Part shown: positions 41,534 through 60,338 of the stretch, in pieces
Numbering within the stretch: the first letter of the stretch is position 1
Layout: every line of letters starts with the position of its first letter
NCBI RefSeq assembly: GCF_021390495.1
Contig: NZ_JAJEJP010000001.1
Location: 3,038,001 to 3,102,000, forward strand
Reading direction: 5' to 3'
Length of the DNA: 64,000 bases
Source of the DNA: Paraburkholderia sp. ZP32-5
GTDB taxonomy: Bacteria > Pseudomonadota > Gammaproteobacteria > Burkholderiales > Burkholderiaceae
Notes under the pieces: generated by a model
What the model was told of the DNA's origin: nothing
The model's database searches: none
The model's input: the letters and a program-made list of their open reading frames with translations, nothing else
Position numbers and translations under genes: made by a program

Positions 41534-41903
41534 GGGGGCGACCTGGTTTCGACAGGGGTTGCGAAGCGGCTAGGGCATGTCGAGGACCCGTCACCTCGTT
41601 AATCAATGGGAAAAACGTAACTGCAAACGACGATACGTTCGCACTGGCAGCCTAAGGGCCGCCGTCCTCTGCCTAGTTCACTGACGGGCTAGTGTCGCAA
41701 GACCGGTAGCAATACCGACAGAGGTCATATACGTCAGTTAAGCCTTGGCGGCGTCACGACGTCCGGGTCGAAAATCTAGTGAATCGCCGTAGCGAAGCGT
41801 GTTCGTCCGCGTCGCTGCGGTTAAATCAAAAGACAGAACTAAACATGTAGAACTGGTCGTAGAGGACTTCTGGACGCGGGTTCGATTCCCGCCGCCTCCA
41901 CCA
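41534..41903 (+). ncRNA. ssrA: Transfer-messenger RNA (tmRNA)
   Basis: tmRNA rescues stalled ribosomes by trans-translation with SmpB. The 5' end GGGGGCGACCTGGTTTCGAC pairs as acceptor stem with the 3' CGCCTCC-A-CCA, and GGTTCGATTCCC forms the T-arm. The tag reading frame at 41623-41652 encodes ANDDTFALAA followed by TAA; this tag is known from Burkholderia. The total of about 370 nt and a single piece are normal. Two hairpins follow, the second a terminator. Confidence 0.97.
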
Positions 41904-55878: not shown

Positions 55879-56109
55879 TCGTGTGAGGTGCGCCGCTGTT
55901 ATTTTCAGAGCAGTCTGATCGTCTGAACGGATTACCTCGGGGCAACATTTTCCGTCGCCGATAGCCTCAGCGGATAACGGTCTGTCGTTCTTTCATCGTC
56001 CTCGCGCGGTGTCTGACGGTGGATCAGGTCCCCGCTGACGCACCGTCGGATCCCCACGGATTCCGTGACTGCCACCGGCCGCCCTGTCATCGGGCACCAC
56101 AAGAAAGCG

Positions 56110-57312
56110 ATGTCCAGCACTCCGCTTACCCTGATCGAAGGCGCTTACGCGCTGCCCCTCTCTCGTCCGCTCGACGATCTTCCCGTGCCGTTGCTTCATG
56201 AGTGGACACCTTTTACCCCCGACGATAGTGAGCTAGACGAACACCGATCTCTTTATGCGGCGCTGCTGCATACGATCTGTCTGAGCAATCGGGAACTGTT
56301 GTCGCGTCGGCGTTGGAAGGTGTTTGACAGCGGCGGCTTTGACCGGCTGGCTACGGCTGCACCTTCCGCCGCTACCGGATCTGGCACAGCGCGTCGTGCA
56401 ATGCATGACGACATAGCGCGGGATACACCACTGCACAAGCCTCCTCCGGCGCCGATGCGGATAGCGCTGAAGCCGCGTCGGCCCGGAACAGCCAAACGAC
56501 GCCGCGCTTCACGCCATTGGCATGGAATCGCGGGCAGGCTCTGCATCGTCGGTGCAGTTGCGCTACTTGCGTGGCTTGCGATCGATCGACATCACGTGTT
56601 GCGTCAGTTGGCCAGTGGATTGCCAGGGCCGGTGATCGTCGCCACAGGGAATCACGACGGACAGCGCTGGCCGCATGCACCCCATGTCGAAGTGCCGGGG
56701 CTGCCAGCATTTGTGGTCGATGAGTCTCACGCGAAGGCAGTGGATGTGGCGCCGGCGCATGCCGATGTCGCGTCCGCTTCGGCTTCGGCTTCGGCTTCGG
56801 CTTCGGCTTCGGCTTCGGCTTCGGCTTCGGCTTCGGCTTCGGCTTCGGCTTCGGTTCATAACGCAGTGTCCCGGCGCGCGCCGAGTGGCGCCACACCCGT
56901 GCACCAGCCGCAACGCATGCAGGTCGCGACAATGGATCACCAACCGCGCTCTGATGGCCAACCCGCTCGACCGTCACAGCACATGCAGGTCACAGCAATG
57001 CACAGCCAAACGCTCTCGGGCGGCCAACCCGCTCGGCCGTCACAGCCCGCCCACATACCGCATGTCAGCGCGACGCGTACAGCGCAGCACACATCGCGTG
57101 CCTTCCCCGCGCAGTCACCCGCACAAACCGACGAATCATTCGCGCAAGAATGGCCCGACGACAGCAGCGAATACACCGCGATCACGACATCCGCTACCAT
57201 GCATACGCTCGCGGGCACGTCGAACAATCGGCCGGTAAGCAATGGCACCGGGTGGATGAATCAAATGACCCAGCGTCGCGTCACCGAAATTCCGGAGCAA
57301 TTCGCACGGTGA
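56110..57312 (+). CDS. Orphan single-pass membrane protein with Ala-Ser repeat tract
   Basis: I do not recognise this 400-residue protein. Residues 1-85 are globular-looking (MSSTPLTLIEGAYALPLSRP, LYAALLHTICLSNRELLSRRRW). A basic stretch (117-138, rich in Arg/Lys) precedes one transmembrane helix (GIAGRLCIVGAVALLAWLAI, 139-158), so the C-terminal 240 residues should face the periplasm. These hold a 13-fold Ala-Ser tract (223-248), a tandem 22-23 residue His/Gln/Pro-rich repeat, and a Ser/Thr-rich tail. Codon use is less GC-biased than neighbours, and an IS follows directly. Start ATG 56110 has only a weak SD; an alternative in-frame start is at 56065. Confidence 0.6.
   Translation: MSSTPLTLIEGAYALPLSRPLDDLPVPLLHEWTPFTPDDSELDEHRSLYAALLHTICLSNRELLSRRRWKVFDSGGFDRLATAAPSAATGSGTARRAMHDDIARDTPLHKPPPAPMRIALKPRRPGTAKRRRASRHWHGIAGRLCIVGAVALLAWLAIDRHHVLRQLASGLPGPVIVATGNHDGQRWPHAPHVEVPGLPAFVVDESHAKAVDVAPAHADVASASASASASASASASASASASASASASVHNAVSRRAPSGATPVHQPQRMQVATMDHQPRSDGQPARPSQHMQVTAMHSQTLSGGQPARPSQPAHIPHVSATRTAQHTSRAFPAQSPAQTDESFAQEWPDDSSEYTAITTSATMHTLAGTSNNRPVSNGTGWMNQMTQRRVTEIPEQFAR
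56776..56853. repeat. Hexanucleotide microsatellite (GCTTCG)13
   Basis: Thirteen perfect tandem copies of GCTTCG (78 bp) within the orphan membrane protein, coding for (Ala-Ser)13. Because the unit is 6 bp, slippage changes tract length without shifting frame. Confidence 0.95.
56911..57045. repeat. Tandem duplication of a 66-69 bp unit
   Basis: Two imperfect copies (56911-56979 and 56980-57045) inside the orphan gene, each encoding ...MQV-A/T-A/x-M...GQPARPSQ. The shared tail GGCCAACCCGCTC-GRCCGTCACAG is nearly identical. Confidence 0.7.
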
Positions 57313-57344
57313 CTTCGCACTGAACCGCTCTAAACGACACGCAC

Positions 57345-57377
57345 AAAAAAGCCCGGCTACTCTGCATAGCCGGGCTT
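57345..57377. terminator. Terminator hairpin of the orphan gene, with its U-tract split by the IS
   Basis: AAGCCCGGCTA (57349-57359) and TAGCCGGGCTT (57367-57377) form an 11-bp stem. On the plus strand only TTAATGAG follows before the IS; a T-rich TTTTCTTTTT is found just past the far end of the IS at 58736. An A-run on the left gives a U-run for minus-strand transcripts. Confidence 0.75.
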
Positions 57378-57383
57378 AATGAG

Positions 57384-57395
57384 ATGGTCACCCCC
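57384..57395 (+). repeat. Left subterminal inverted repeat of the IS
   Basis: ATGGTCACCCCC, exact inverse complement of the repeat at 58721-58732. Confidence 0.9.
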
Positions 57396-57447
57396 ACCCT
57401 GCACGCGGGTTACGCTGCAGGGTGTTTTCTTTTCTGGAGAGGCCATC

Positions 57448-58473
57448 ATGCAGACCGTGACGCTGGTTGGAGTCGATCTGGGCAAGCATTCGTTTCATCT
57501 TCACGGTCAGGACCGGCACGGCAAAGCCGTGTTCCGCCGGAAGGTGAGTCGTAAGCAGCTGATTGAATTCTTCGCCACCTTTCACTGCTGCACGGTGGTC
57601 ATGGAAGCCTGCGCAGGCGCTCATCACATGGCCCGGAAACTTGCTGGCTTCGGGCATCAGGTCAAACTCATCTCGCCGCAGTTTGTGCGGCCCTTCGTCA
57701 AGAGTAACAAGAACGATTTCGTAGACGCGGAAGCAATCTGCGAAGCAGCGTCACGTCCGGCCATGCGCTTCGTGACGCCCAAGACAGAATCGCAGCAAAC
57801 GCTCTCGACCTTGCACCGACTTCGCGAATCTATGGTTCGGGATCGCGTTAAGACATGCAACCAGATGCACGGCTTCCTGCTCGAATTTGGCATCAGTCTG
57901 CCGATTGGAAAGGCTGTCATCAAGCGCCTGCCGGCAGTTCTCTCCGAGCATTCGCTCCCACCGCGACTGGTGGCGATCCTCGATCGTTTGCATTCCCACT
58001 TCAAGTATCTCAGCGAACAGATCGACCAAATCGAGACAGAGCTGACCCGGCAACTGGCCGATGATGACCTTGGCCAGCGCCTGCTAGGCATCCCGGGTGT
58101 CGGTCCGATCACGGCGAGCGTACTCGCCTCCGAAATGGGCGATGGCAAACAGTACGGCTGCAGTCGGGACTTCGCGGCGTCCATCGGTCTCGTGCCGCGC
58201 CAGTACAGTACGGGCGGCAAGGCAAACCTGCTGGGCATCAGCAAACGCGGAGACAAAAATATACGTCGCCTGCTTGTGCAGTGCGCCAGAGCCTACATGC
58301 AGCGGCTGGACCGGCAGACAGGCCGGTTGGCCGCATGGGTTCGGTCGATGCTCACACGCCGACACTCAAACGTGGTGGCCTGCGCTCTTGCCAACAAGCT
58401 GGCGCGAACCGCCTGGGCGCTGGCAACGCGCAACAGCACGTTCGATGCGGGAGCGGGTGCCTTACAAGTCTGA
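57448..58473 (+). CDS. IS110-family (IS1111 group) DEDD transposase/recombinase
   Basis: The 341-residue recombinase has an N-terminal RuvC-like DEDD domain with Asp10 (VGVDLGKHS), Glu53 (VVMEACAGAHH), Asp90 and Asp93 (SNKNDFVDAEA), and a C-terminal Transposase_20 domain with IPGVGPITASVLASEMGDG and FAASIGLVPRQYSTGGKANLLGISKRGDKN. A conserved Ser there (probably Ser254 of RQYSTGG) is the likely DNA-joining nucleophile. The frame is complete with no frameshift, so it may be active. SD GGAGAGG is before the ATG. Family members act with an RNA encoded in a non-coding end of the element. Confidence 0.93.
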   Translation: MQTVTLVGVDLGKHSFHLHGQDRHGKAVFRRKVSRKQLIEFFATFHCCTVVMEACAGAHHMARKLAGFGHQVKLISPQFVRPFVKSNKNDFVDAEAICEAASRPAMRFVTPKTESQQTLSTLHRLRESMVRDRVKTCNQMHGFLLEFGISLPIGKAVIKRLPAVLSEHSLPPRLVAILDRLHSHFKYLSEQIDQIETELTRQLADDDLGQRLLGIPGVGPITASVLASEMGDGKQYGCSRDFAASIGLVPRQYSTGGKANLLGISKRGDKNIRRLLVQCARAYMQRLDRQTGRLAAWVRSMLTRRHSNVVACALANKLARTAWALATRNSTFDAGAGALQV

Positions 58474-58720
58474 GCCCCCGACTCTCATCCACGCTTTGTG
58501 AAGTTCCGACTTCCTGGTTTTGCGACCGCTGAAATTTGATGACGTGAACGGCACACCGGCCTGGCGAACACCCTGTCAAAGAAATTGGCCTTCGAAGCCG
58601 CGGGCTTTTTTAGGATCGTCAGGCGCGATTCTCATCGTGGCGCGGGGAGCGATCCCCACAACGACGCCGGATAGATTTAGGCAAGCCAACCACAACATCG
58701 AAGATCAGTGTTGCAAAAAC
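58474..58720 (+). ncRNA. Candidate bridge/seekRNA region of the IS
   Basis: The 247-nt right non-coding region follows the transposase stop, the place where IS1111-group elements encode their guide RNA. It contains GGGCTTTTTT (58602-58611), which copies the reconstructed pre-insertion target junction, inside a small AAGCC-GCG-GGCTT hairpin. RNA boundaries and structure are not determined. Confidence 0.5.
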
Positions 58721-58732
58721 GGGGGTGACCAT
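58721..58732 (-). repeat. Right subterminal inverted repeat of the IS
   Basis: GGGGGTGACCAT, exact inverse complement of the repeat at 57384-57395. Confidence 0.9.
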
Positions 58733-58808
58733 AGATTTTCTTTTTCCGTCGAGCCTTTGATTTCCGCCAAAGGCAAAGACAAACGCCAACGCGGCGCAGC
58801 ACCTGCCC

Positions 58809-60338
58809 CTAAAACCGCGTCTCCCGCGCGACCCGCAGGAACGTATCGAGCAGCGGCGTGCAATCGAGCAGTTCCGCCCCGCCCGCGCGATGAAACTCCG
58901 GATGCCACTGCACGCCCATCACGAACGGCGCGCGCCGGTAACGCACGGCCTCGATGATGCCGTCCGACGCCGACACCGCCTCGATATTCAGATCGCGGCC
59001 GAGCGTCTTCACCGCCTGATGGTGGATCGAGTTGACGATCGCGTCGCGCCGCCCGGGGAACATGTTGAGCAGCGTCGAGCCGTCCGGGAAATGAACGCCG
59101 TGCCGGTGCTGATCGTAGTTTTCGTTGACGTGCACGTTCGCGGTCGGCACATCGGTCGCGATGTCCTGATACAGCGTGCCGCCAAACGCGACGTTGATCA
59201 GCTGACAGCCGCGGCACACACCGAGCACCGGCTTGCCCGACTCGACGAACTCGTGCAGCAGTTCGAGCTCGTACATGTCGCGCACGCGGTCGCCGGGCCA
59301 TTCGTGGCTCAACGCCGCTTCCGCGTAGGTCTGCGGCGACACGTCGGCGCCGCCTTGCAGCAACAGGCCGTCGAGATTTTTCGCGTAATCGCGCAGGCGG
59401 ATATTGCTCGGATGCAGCATGCCCTGATGGCCGACGGTCGGAATCATGAACACCAGCACATCGCGCGACATCACCCAATGTGCGATCGACTCCTCCAGAT
59501 ACTGCAGCGTCTTGCCGCGCAGCCCCTTCGCACCCGGCTCTGGATGGAAGATCCGCGCCGACACGCCGATGCGCAGCGTGCGCTGGGTGATCCGCTGCCC
59601 CGCGCGATCGAACAGTTGCCGCGCGCGCGCCGCGATGATGCGGCCGAACACGCTCCACGCCGAATCGCTCTGATGCAGATAGCGCGGCGGCGACGGCGGC
59701 AACGCGTTGGGCGGCGGCGGATTGGTTGCGCTGAAATCGGGCGCCGCGCCGAAGCCCGGCGGCGGCGCGCCAGCCGGCCGCGCGGTGGCGGGCGCGGAGT
59801 CCTCGGTGGCAATGTCGGCTTCGGTGACGACGTCGTCGGCGAGCGTGGCGGCCGGGCGTGCACCGCTCGCGGTCGCATTCGCCGCGCCGGTATGCAGCTC
59901 GCCGCTCGCGGACATCGAACCCGCCGGCTTCAACGGCTCGGCTTTCGTGGCCGTGGCGCTCGCGGCACCTGCCGCATGCGAGCCACCGCGCCGTGCTTCG
60001 CGTTCGTGGACCGCGGCTTCCTGCCGCGCGGTGGACTCCGCGGCGGCGCTGCGCGCCTCGGCCGCATCGCGCAGGCGAGCCTCACGCGGATCTTCCGGCG
60101 TGACGGCCGACGCGCTGATCGGATCATCGGTCGACGACCTGACAGCCGCTTCTTCGGTGGCCGGATTCGTATCCTGGGCAGCGGACTGGGTCGTATCTCC
60201 ACGCAACGGAGGCAGCGACGCGGCCGGTTCGGCCCGTGCCGTGCCGCCTGGCGGCGTGCCGCTCGAAGCGCTCGAAGCAGGTGAGGCTGGCGACGGAGTG
60301 CCGGTCGTGTCGGCGTTGTCAGGTTTGTTTTCGCTCAT
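58809..60338 (-). CDS. Gamma-glutamyl-gamma-aminobutyrate hydrolase family protein (PuuD-like) with long N-terminal extension
   Basis: The C-terminal ~270 residues are a class I glutamine amidotransferase: TLRIGVSARIFHPEPGAKG, nucleophile Cys375 in VLGVCRGCQLINVAFGG, and the catalytic His479/Glu481 in QWHPEFH. PuuD-type enzymes split gamma-glutamyl-GABA in putrescine breakdown. Residues 1-235 are Ala/Pro/Thr/Ser-rich low-complexity sequence with no domain. Start ATG 60338 (MSENKPDNADTTGTPSPASP) is chosen over an upstream frame to 60425. It is not clustered with other puu genes, so the real substrate is open. Confidence 0.85.
   Translation of the reverse strand: MSENKPDNADTTGTPSPASPASSASSGTPPGGTARAEPAASLPPLRGDTTQSAAQDTNPATEEAAVRSSTDDPISASAVTPEDPREARLRDAAEARSAAAESTARQEAAVHEREARRGGSHAAGAASATATKAEPLKPAGSMSASGELHTGAANATASGARPAATLADDVVTEADIATEDSAPATARPAGAPPPGFGAAPDFSATNPPPPNALPPSPPRYLHQSDSAWSVFGRIIAARARQLFDRAGQRITQRTLRIGVSARIFHPEPGAKGLRGKTLQYLEESIAHWVMSRDVLVFMIPTVGHQGMLHPSNIRLRDYAKNLDGLLLQGGADVSPQTYAEAALSHEWPGDRVRDMYELELLHEFVESGKPVLGVCRGCQLINVAFGGTLYQDIATDVPTANVHVNENYDQHRHGVHFPDGSTLLNMFPGRRDAIVNSIHHQAVKTLGRDLNIEAVSASDGIIEAVRYRRAPFVMGVQWHPEFHRAGGAELLDCTPLLDTFLRVARETRF

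Follow-up and report, generated by a model that had tools for sequence, protein, structure and literature searches.

Positions 57377-58735 of the window, the 64,000-nucleotide stretch of Paraburkholderia sp. ZP32-5 DNA analysed here, are occupied by an insertion sequence of the IS1111 group of the IS110 family (1,359 bp, plus strand), whose transposase would be directed by an RNA from the element's own right non-coding end with guides that spell the junction between the stem and the T-tract of intrinsic terminators. To this reading we give a probability of about 94%. In the mechanism that we propose the guide string would correspond to the junction of the 3' stem arm and the T-tract of such terminators, the element would land between terminator hairpin and U-tract in the same direction as the transcript being terminated, and a second loop of the RNA, containing TCTCAT and ATAGAT, probably pairs with the joined ends of the element. 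That the right end encodes an RNA of the seekRNA or bridge type is supported at the level of sequence. The evidence computed here consists of the agreement between guides and targets, the covariation over relatives, the fold of the RNA and the terminator-like character of the sites. An RNA-guided IS110-family element had been proposed in the original prediction and is borne out by a right-end RNA fold that covaries and by target guides that covary with the flanks of the relatives.

The transposase (57448-58473, plus strand, 341 aa) scores above cut-off for PF01548 (DEDD_Tnp_IS110, 70.4 bits) and PF02371 (Transposase_20, 79.6 bits), and the solved structures matched by its sequence are two, those of the ISCro4 and IS621 transposases. 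The element has sub-terminal inverted repeats in the 11-13 bp range of the IS1111 group, ATGGTCACCCCC (57384-57395) and GGGGGTGACCAT (58721-58732), which are complementary at 12/12 positions, and, again as in this group, a long non-coding region 3' of the transposase gene (58474-58720, 247 nt). Members of the group are reported to carry extensions of 7 bp on the left and 3 bp on the right beyond the inverted repeats (Siddiquee et al. 2024, PMC11187229), which places the element ends at 57377 and 58735, with TAATGAG (57377-57383) and AGA (58733-58735) as the two extensions, and gives GGGCT/TTTTCTTT as the rejoined target, the slash marking the point of insertion. These extensions are consistent with the register of the guides and with the relatives. 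A second, identical copy of the element lies on another replicon of the same genome, and the agreement between both copies spans 57372-58743, that is, the element together with GGGCT before and TTTTCTTT after it. No sigma-70-like promoter was found in the linear DNA of 56900-59000. In the joined circle, TTGCAA (58711-58716) would be followed after 17 nt by GATAAT (58734-58735 joined to 57377-57380), and the two may form a junction promoter of the kind described for ISEc11 (PMC11187229).

The left half of the target is a terminator-like hairpin with a 5' A-tract (57345-57376, no strand assigned; our locus L002, score 27) that ends with GGGCT at the insertion point, and the 3' T-tract of this interrupted terminator now begins at 58736, displaced into the right flank TTTTCTTT (58736-58743). 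Two plus-strand segments of the right end correspond to this site. The target guide GGGCTTTTTT (58602-58611) is the same as the top strand, with GGGCT of the left flank followed by a T-run, and the target guide CAAAGAAA (58577-58584) is the complement of the right-flank top strand, pairing with TTTCTTT at 7/8 positions at the window copy and at 8/8 at the other copy. The right guide begins one base into the flank and skips its first T, a register slip of one. The former guide, and likewise TCTCAT at 58630-58635 with its complement ATGAGA at 57379-57384, had been located correctly in the original prediction; the match to left flank and core comes to 9 nt (GGGCTTTTT, 58602-58610), with the tenth base differing. 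What the prediction lacked were the second, complementary target guide at 58577-58584 and a second donor-like match, ATAGAT (58671-58676). The guides are ordered here as CAAAGAAA, a small hairpin and then GGGCTTTTT, and in IS1111 seekRNAs, too, the complement of the target top strand precedes the match of the bottom strand (PMC11187229). With the mononucleotides of the 247-nt region shuffled 20,000 times, GGGCTTTTT arose 11 times, AAAGAAA 169 times and both together 0 times, and it is the comparison with relatives that places the target match far above chance. A search of 58 and 141 genus genomes, with the right flank of each copy as the query, and a reading of the loci of the best relatives showed no empty site at either locus. 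The reason is that in the relatives examined conservation at both sites extends to the genes but not to the DNA between them, so that how many Ts the original target had is a deduction.

In an alignment of 34 of the 106 insertions described below, picked by hand for diversity, the right-end RNA folds into a closing helix, a target loop with both guides placed around a hairpin, and a second domain. Transferred to the window, the predicted long seekRNA or bridge-type RNA would extend over 58516-58687 (about 172 nt, closing helix 58516-58523/58681-58687). It would include the target-loop domain at 58557-58627 (stem 58557-58567/58616-58627, inner stem 58572-58574/58612-58614), the hairpin between the two target guides at 58586-58600 (helix 4 of the alignment fold) and, between the candidate donor segments, the helix TGGCGC/GACGCCG with its enclosed loop at 58638-58669 (helix 6), all on the plus strand. 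Under this fold 97.0% of the alignment cells are paired, a value that falls to 27-38% when the alignment is slid by 1-3 columns. Ten pairs have changed on both sides (as many in 1/500 shuffles), mostly in the target domain, with 0 in the closing helix and 1 in the second domain, and the covariation score is 0.183 versus 0.095 in shuffles, none of 500 of which scored as high. Folding of 58474-58720 with a search for covariance had been suggested as the check on the original prediction, and the structure is found to be both conserved and covarying among relatives. Single-sequence folding returns a long fold as well (z -2.52, 2/200 shuffles as good), and our conclusions rest on the alignment instead. 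With long forms of 145-170 nt and short forms of 70-100 nt reported for seekRNAs (PMC11187229), the predicted 58516-58687 RNA is near the long-form and its target domain near the short-form size. No Rfam family matches 58474-58735 up to an E-value of 1.

The relatives were taken from a search of the genus (match in 94/144 genomes), from extra regions and from 80 named loci, the best 80 of 221, nine of which had no recognisable right end. The 129 parsed element ends correspond to 106 distinct insertions after removal of 22 duplicates and of L049, a false end match. Three loci whose guide region could not be aligned (L148, L050 and L052) were dropped before the guide test, for which the set comprised 83 insertions with both flanks and 60 distinct guide pairs. 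Over these pairs the left guide agrees with its own flank at 4.6/5 positions and with swapped flanks at 2.0, and the right guide with its own flank at 7.08/8 and with swapped flanks at 4.47. Neither value was reached in 5000 permutations, and the excess of own over swapped amounts to about 19 standard deviations on each side. The match to the own flank is full for 41/60 left and 30/60 right guides. Guide and flank disagree on the left in L010 and L026 (only 2/5 each) and on the right in L026 (2/8) and in L147 (4/8), the latter because of a shorter T-run in its flank; a foreign flank beats the own flank for 7/46 distinct left and 15/60 distinct right guides. A later set, for which 398 family genomes were searched (97 with a match) and 29 loci examined, yielded 11 new insertions and 18 repeats; in this set the left flanks are fully matched (5/5, null 2.83, 49/3000 permutations as high) and the right flanks (n=11) score 7.09 versus 4.94 when permuted (0/3000). 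Examined as target guides of a seekRNA or bridge RNA, the guides are thus found to covary with the flanks of the relatives. The worry that target sites of other copies might prove unrelated to the internal sequence is dispelled, since nearly all copies' sites agree with their own guides.

A natural re-aiming is seen in L161 from Caballeronia glathei, which has the right guide of the window element together with the left guide GGCCT and is located at GGCCT/TTTTCTTT; left guide and flank have changed alike relative to the window (GGCCT for GGGCT). In L228 the guide is CAACGAAA and the flank TTTCGTTTG. Four insertions (L013, L021, L035 and L022) have the guide pair CATCG and AACAAGAA in common, with one base different in L022, and are located at GCATC(G/T/A)/TTCTTGTTGC, 3/4 of them within the similar sequence GGTTGCTGCAC...CAGA; their site is a different dedicated target class. 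A further recurrent target, not terminator-like, is found near CCAC/TTTGGCA for L014, L016, L017, L018, L028 and L246, whose guide class is TCCACT and GTGCCAAA. One insertion is common to L004 and L164 (Paraburkholderia ferrariae).

Each of the two copies in this genome lies between the hairpin and the T-tract of a terminator-like site, and the closest insertions, L001, L002, L004 and L161, are preceded by four different GC-rich hairpins without interruption (no more than one G-U pair in each) and followed by TTTTCTTT. By a criterion of our own, a hairpin score with a fixed cut-off of 16 and at least 4 T in 7, 21/83 sites are terminators as compared to 1.72 with shuffled left flanks (maximum 5 in 50 trials); the borderline sites L160 and L166 count as non-terminators, and L169 counts as a terminator, unlike L166 and L168, which are near copies of it. 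Since the remaining 62/83 sites fail this criterion, terminators are one target class among several. Of the terminator sites 16/21 are found no more than 130 bp after a co-oriented open reading frame, versus 11/60 of the others (Fisher p 3e-6, with a limit chosen after seeing the distances), L102 and L139 being left out of this count for too little left DNA. Avoidance of open frames was not found: rejoined sites fall inside a frame of at least 120 aa in 8/21 terminator and 24/60 other cases, a crude count to which we give little weight because such frames are often spurious in GC-rich DNA.

The genome itself contains 34 places within one mismatch of GGGCTTTTTCTTT and none that is exact, which means that the two sites whose match is exact after rejoining each hold a copy of the element. 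A hairpin abuts 22/30 of the near-matches that were fetched, 4 of the 34 places having been left out; one two-way terminator was counted twice (L187 and L188), so that 22/30 equals 21/29 distinct places. Among the controls the figures were 0/11 for reversed-pattern sites, 180/3000 for random window positions and 27/199 for T-runs of the window. As the near-matches are mostly terminator-like, a guide of this sequence is in practice a terminator address. What the RNA reads is the T-tract together with only about 5 nt of the 3' stem arm, and not the hairpin as such. The suggestion of the original prediction that the system seeks terminators is supported in the sense that the guide spells the terminator junction. 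On a quick tree of 73 transposases (SH-aLRT only; 18 terminator, 52 other and 3 unlabelled), from which 13/86 were left off as pieces shorter than 300 aa, among them L004, L040 and L138, the terminator label changes 10 times, with at least 5 changes forced by well-supported branches, and is clustered (shuffled mean 16.3 changes, 1/500 as low). With this number of changes a single origin of terminator targeting is not supported.

Could the similarity between right end and flanks be a matter of chance or composition, T-tracts and GC-rich pentamers being common, with an RNA that guides nothing? T-rich guides do match T-rich flanks even when these are swapped, hence the high null of 4.47/8, and TCTCAT alone turns up in 869/20,000 shuffles, so that the original prediction was right to caution that the 6-nt donor match alone could be chance. 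However, own flanks beat swapped ones by the margin given above on both sides in a set in which most targets are not terminator-like, and the agreement was repeated in the later set. The permutation tests in both sets refute a chance origin of the match for the target guides, if not for the donor match, and we consider this explanation to be extremely improbable. Recognition of the folded terminator hairpin by the transposase, in the manner of group IIC introns with a stem-loop, would leave to the guide only an adjustment of position. This is somewhat easier to entertain but still quite improbable: the 62 insertions that fail the hairpin and T-tract criterion are those of relatives with the same guide layout, and the guide-like sequence itself already selects terminator-like sites in this genome, even though L001, L002, L004 and L161 all follow uninterrupted hairpins with differing stems and loops while the guide reads only part of the stem, and even though a stem-loop target has been described for the Coxiella IS1111 (PMC2104537). 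We thus favour a transposase that would be directed to the stem/T-tract junction by the right-end RNA.

A less settled question is whether this RNA also pairs with the element. TCTCAT (58630-58635) is complementary to ATGAGA at the left end, which is supplied by the 7-bp extension and the next base, and ATAGAT (58671-58676) corresponds to the right tip ATAGA plus the first left-end base T, both on the plus strand. It is plausible from the sequence that TCTCAT pairs with ATGAGA as a donor guide, with ATAGAT as candidate second donor guide. Over 86 rows the pairing of TCTCAT with the left end is perfect in 50, includes one G-U in 21 and has one or two mismatches in 15, and with the G-U pairs counted all six positions pair in 71/86 left ends. 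Covariation was sought among these rows and none was convincing; in L042 both sides have changed to match, but a pair has been lost as well. The donor guide of the original prediction is hence retained for its position and its conservation, and not on grounds of covariation. The rival view, that the seekRNA pairs with the target only and that TCTCAT and ATAGAT are structural or protein-binding and unpaired with the element ends, is a serious one, to which we give roughly half the credence of its opposite. It accords with the near invariance of the two segments, as expected of a protein-binding site, with left-end variants (ATGGGA and ATGACA) that have no compensating changes in the donor segments, and with the report that a short seekRNA suffices for ISEc11 (PMC11187229). 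Against it stand the extent of the pairing, the L042 change for what it is worth, and the position and order of the segments, which stand on either side of the second hairpin in the way that the target guides do around the first and so mirror the target loop. Moreover, many orthologues of IS1111 have been proposed to possess donor-binding nucleotides in a multiloop (Durrant et al. 2024, PMC11208160), and the donor pairing suggested here is in line with that proposal.

After insertion, TAATGAG follows the hairpin in place of the T-tract, and the T-tract lies at the other end of the element without a hairpin. A scan of 56900-59000 detects terminator-like sites on the minus strand only, four in number as against a shuffled mean of 2.6, and the old hairpin is one of them. 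With the hairpin parted from its T-tract, the remaining terminators on the minus strand only and no promoter at hand, transcription of the upstream gene is likely to read through into the transposase, and this could feed expression in the inserted state. On its left the window copy has a plus-strand frame that ends at 57312, and on its right a minus-strand frame whose end is at 58809. The left-hand frame (56065-57312, plus strand, 415 aa) includes a low-complexity repeat, a long run of the dipeptide AS (ASASAS...). The interrupted terminator (57345-57377) keeps its A-tract and is still terminator-like for leftward, minus-strand transcription; judging from this arrangement, transcription of the right-hand gene could run through the element in antisense and end only there. 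One may go further and speculate that terminators have repeatedly been adopted as an address by IS1111-type guide RNAs, chosen as expression platforms beyond being harmless sites, an idea that we find doubtful. If it were true, insertion between hairpin and U-tract would keep the 3' hairpin of the upstream transcript and disable termination, and the host transcript would read into the transposase gene and the guide RNA.

The machinery as such is already known from IS1111 seekRNAs and bridge RNAs. The seekRNA elements ISEc11, ISKpn4, ISPst6 and ISPa11 (PMC11187229) have in common with the present element the DEDD transposase, the sub-terminal inverted repeats with 7+3 bp extensions, the downstream non-coding region, the complement of the top strand placed before the match of the bottom strand, and natural re-aiming. 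The targets described for them are a short linear site, attC sites and REP sequences, whereas the present element is aimed at the junction of terminator hairpin and T-tract. IS621 and other IS110 elements with bridge RNA (PMC11208160) are alike in the recombinase family and in a two-loop RNA that pairs with both target strands and probably with the donor; they differ in that the RNA here is in the right end, the guides are in IS1111 order, the inverted repeats are longer and the donor pairing is a candidate only. By analogy with these published relatives we infer that transcription would run from the circle junction, that the transposase would bind the RNA, that the RNA would pair with the donor, and that its pairing would cause the choice of site. 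The Coxiella IS1111 (PMC2104537, PMC5896051) likewise belongs to the IS1111 group and inserts at chromosomal stem-loops, its target being a repeated stem-loop with more than 50 copies that was later described as a MITE. Unlike that target, the different terminators here have little in common beyond the bases read by the guide. Group IIC introns are retroelements, whose protein and RNA are unrelated to those of the IS1111 type. Their likeness is a convergent choice of site only, by another mechanism, since they insert behind attC sites and the stem-loops of terminators and make use of a short base pairing (PMC7923331).

Terminators as a repeatedly adopted target class, or as a target of IS110 or IS1111 elements at all, were not found in the open-licence literature searched, which includes the available portions of PMC11187229, PMC11208160, PMC9208149, PMC2104537, PMC5896051, PMC10969869 and PMC12045711. 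The element offers a clear case of an RNA-guided system whose guide is legible and whose target can be accounted for base by base, nature itself having supplied a single-base re-aiming from GGGCT to GGCCT. With it, intrinsic terminators join the targets of programmable elements, as a class to or from which the tree shows several switches. A testable idea is raised as well, namely that guides spelling the stem/T-tract junction give landing sites just downstream of genes, which has a bearing on the low-cost spread of such elements and on which natural guides to select for genome engineering.

Elsewhere in the same genome a decayed left end (L003 1501-1557; contig 1, 972312-972368) matches that of the present element at 81% over 57 bp with no further element match, and is likely the relic of an older related element. 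The window also contains a tmRNA gene at 41534-41903 (RF00023, 222 bits).
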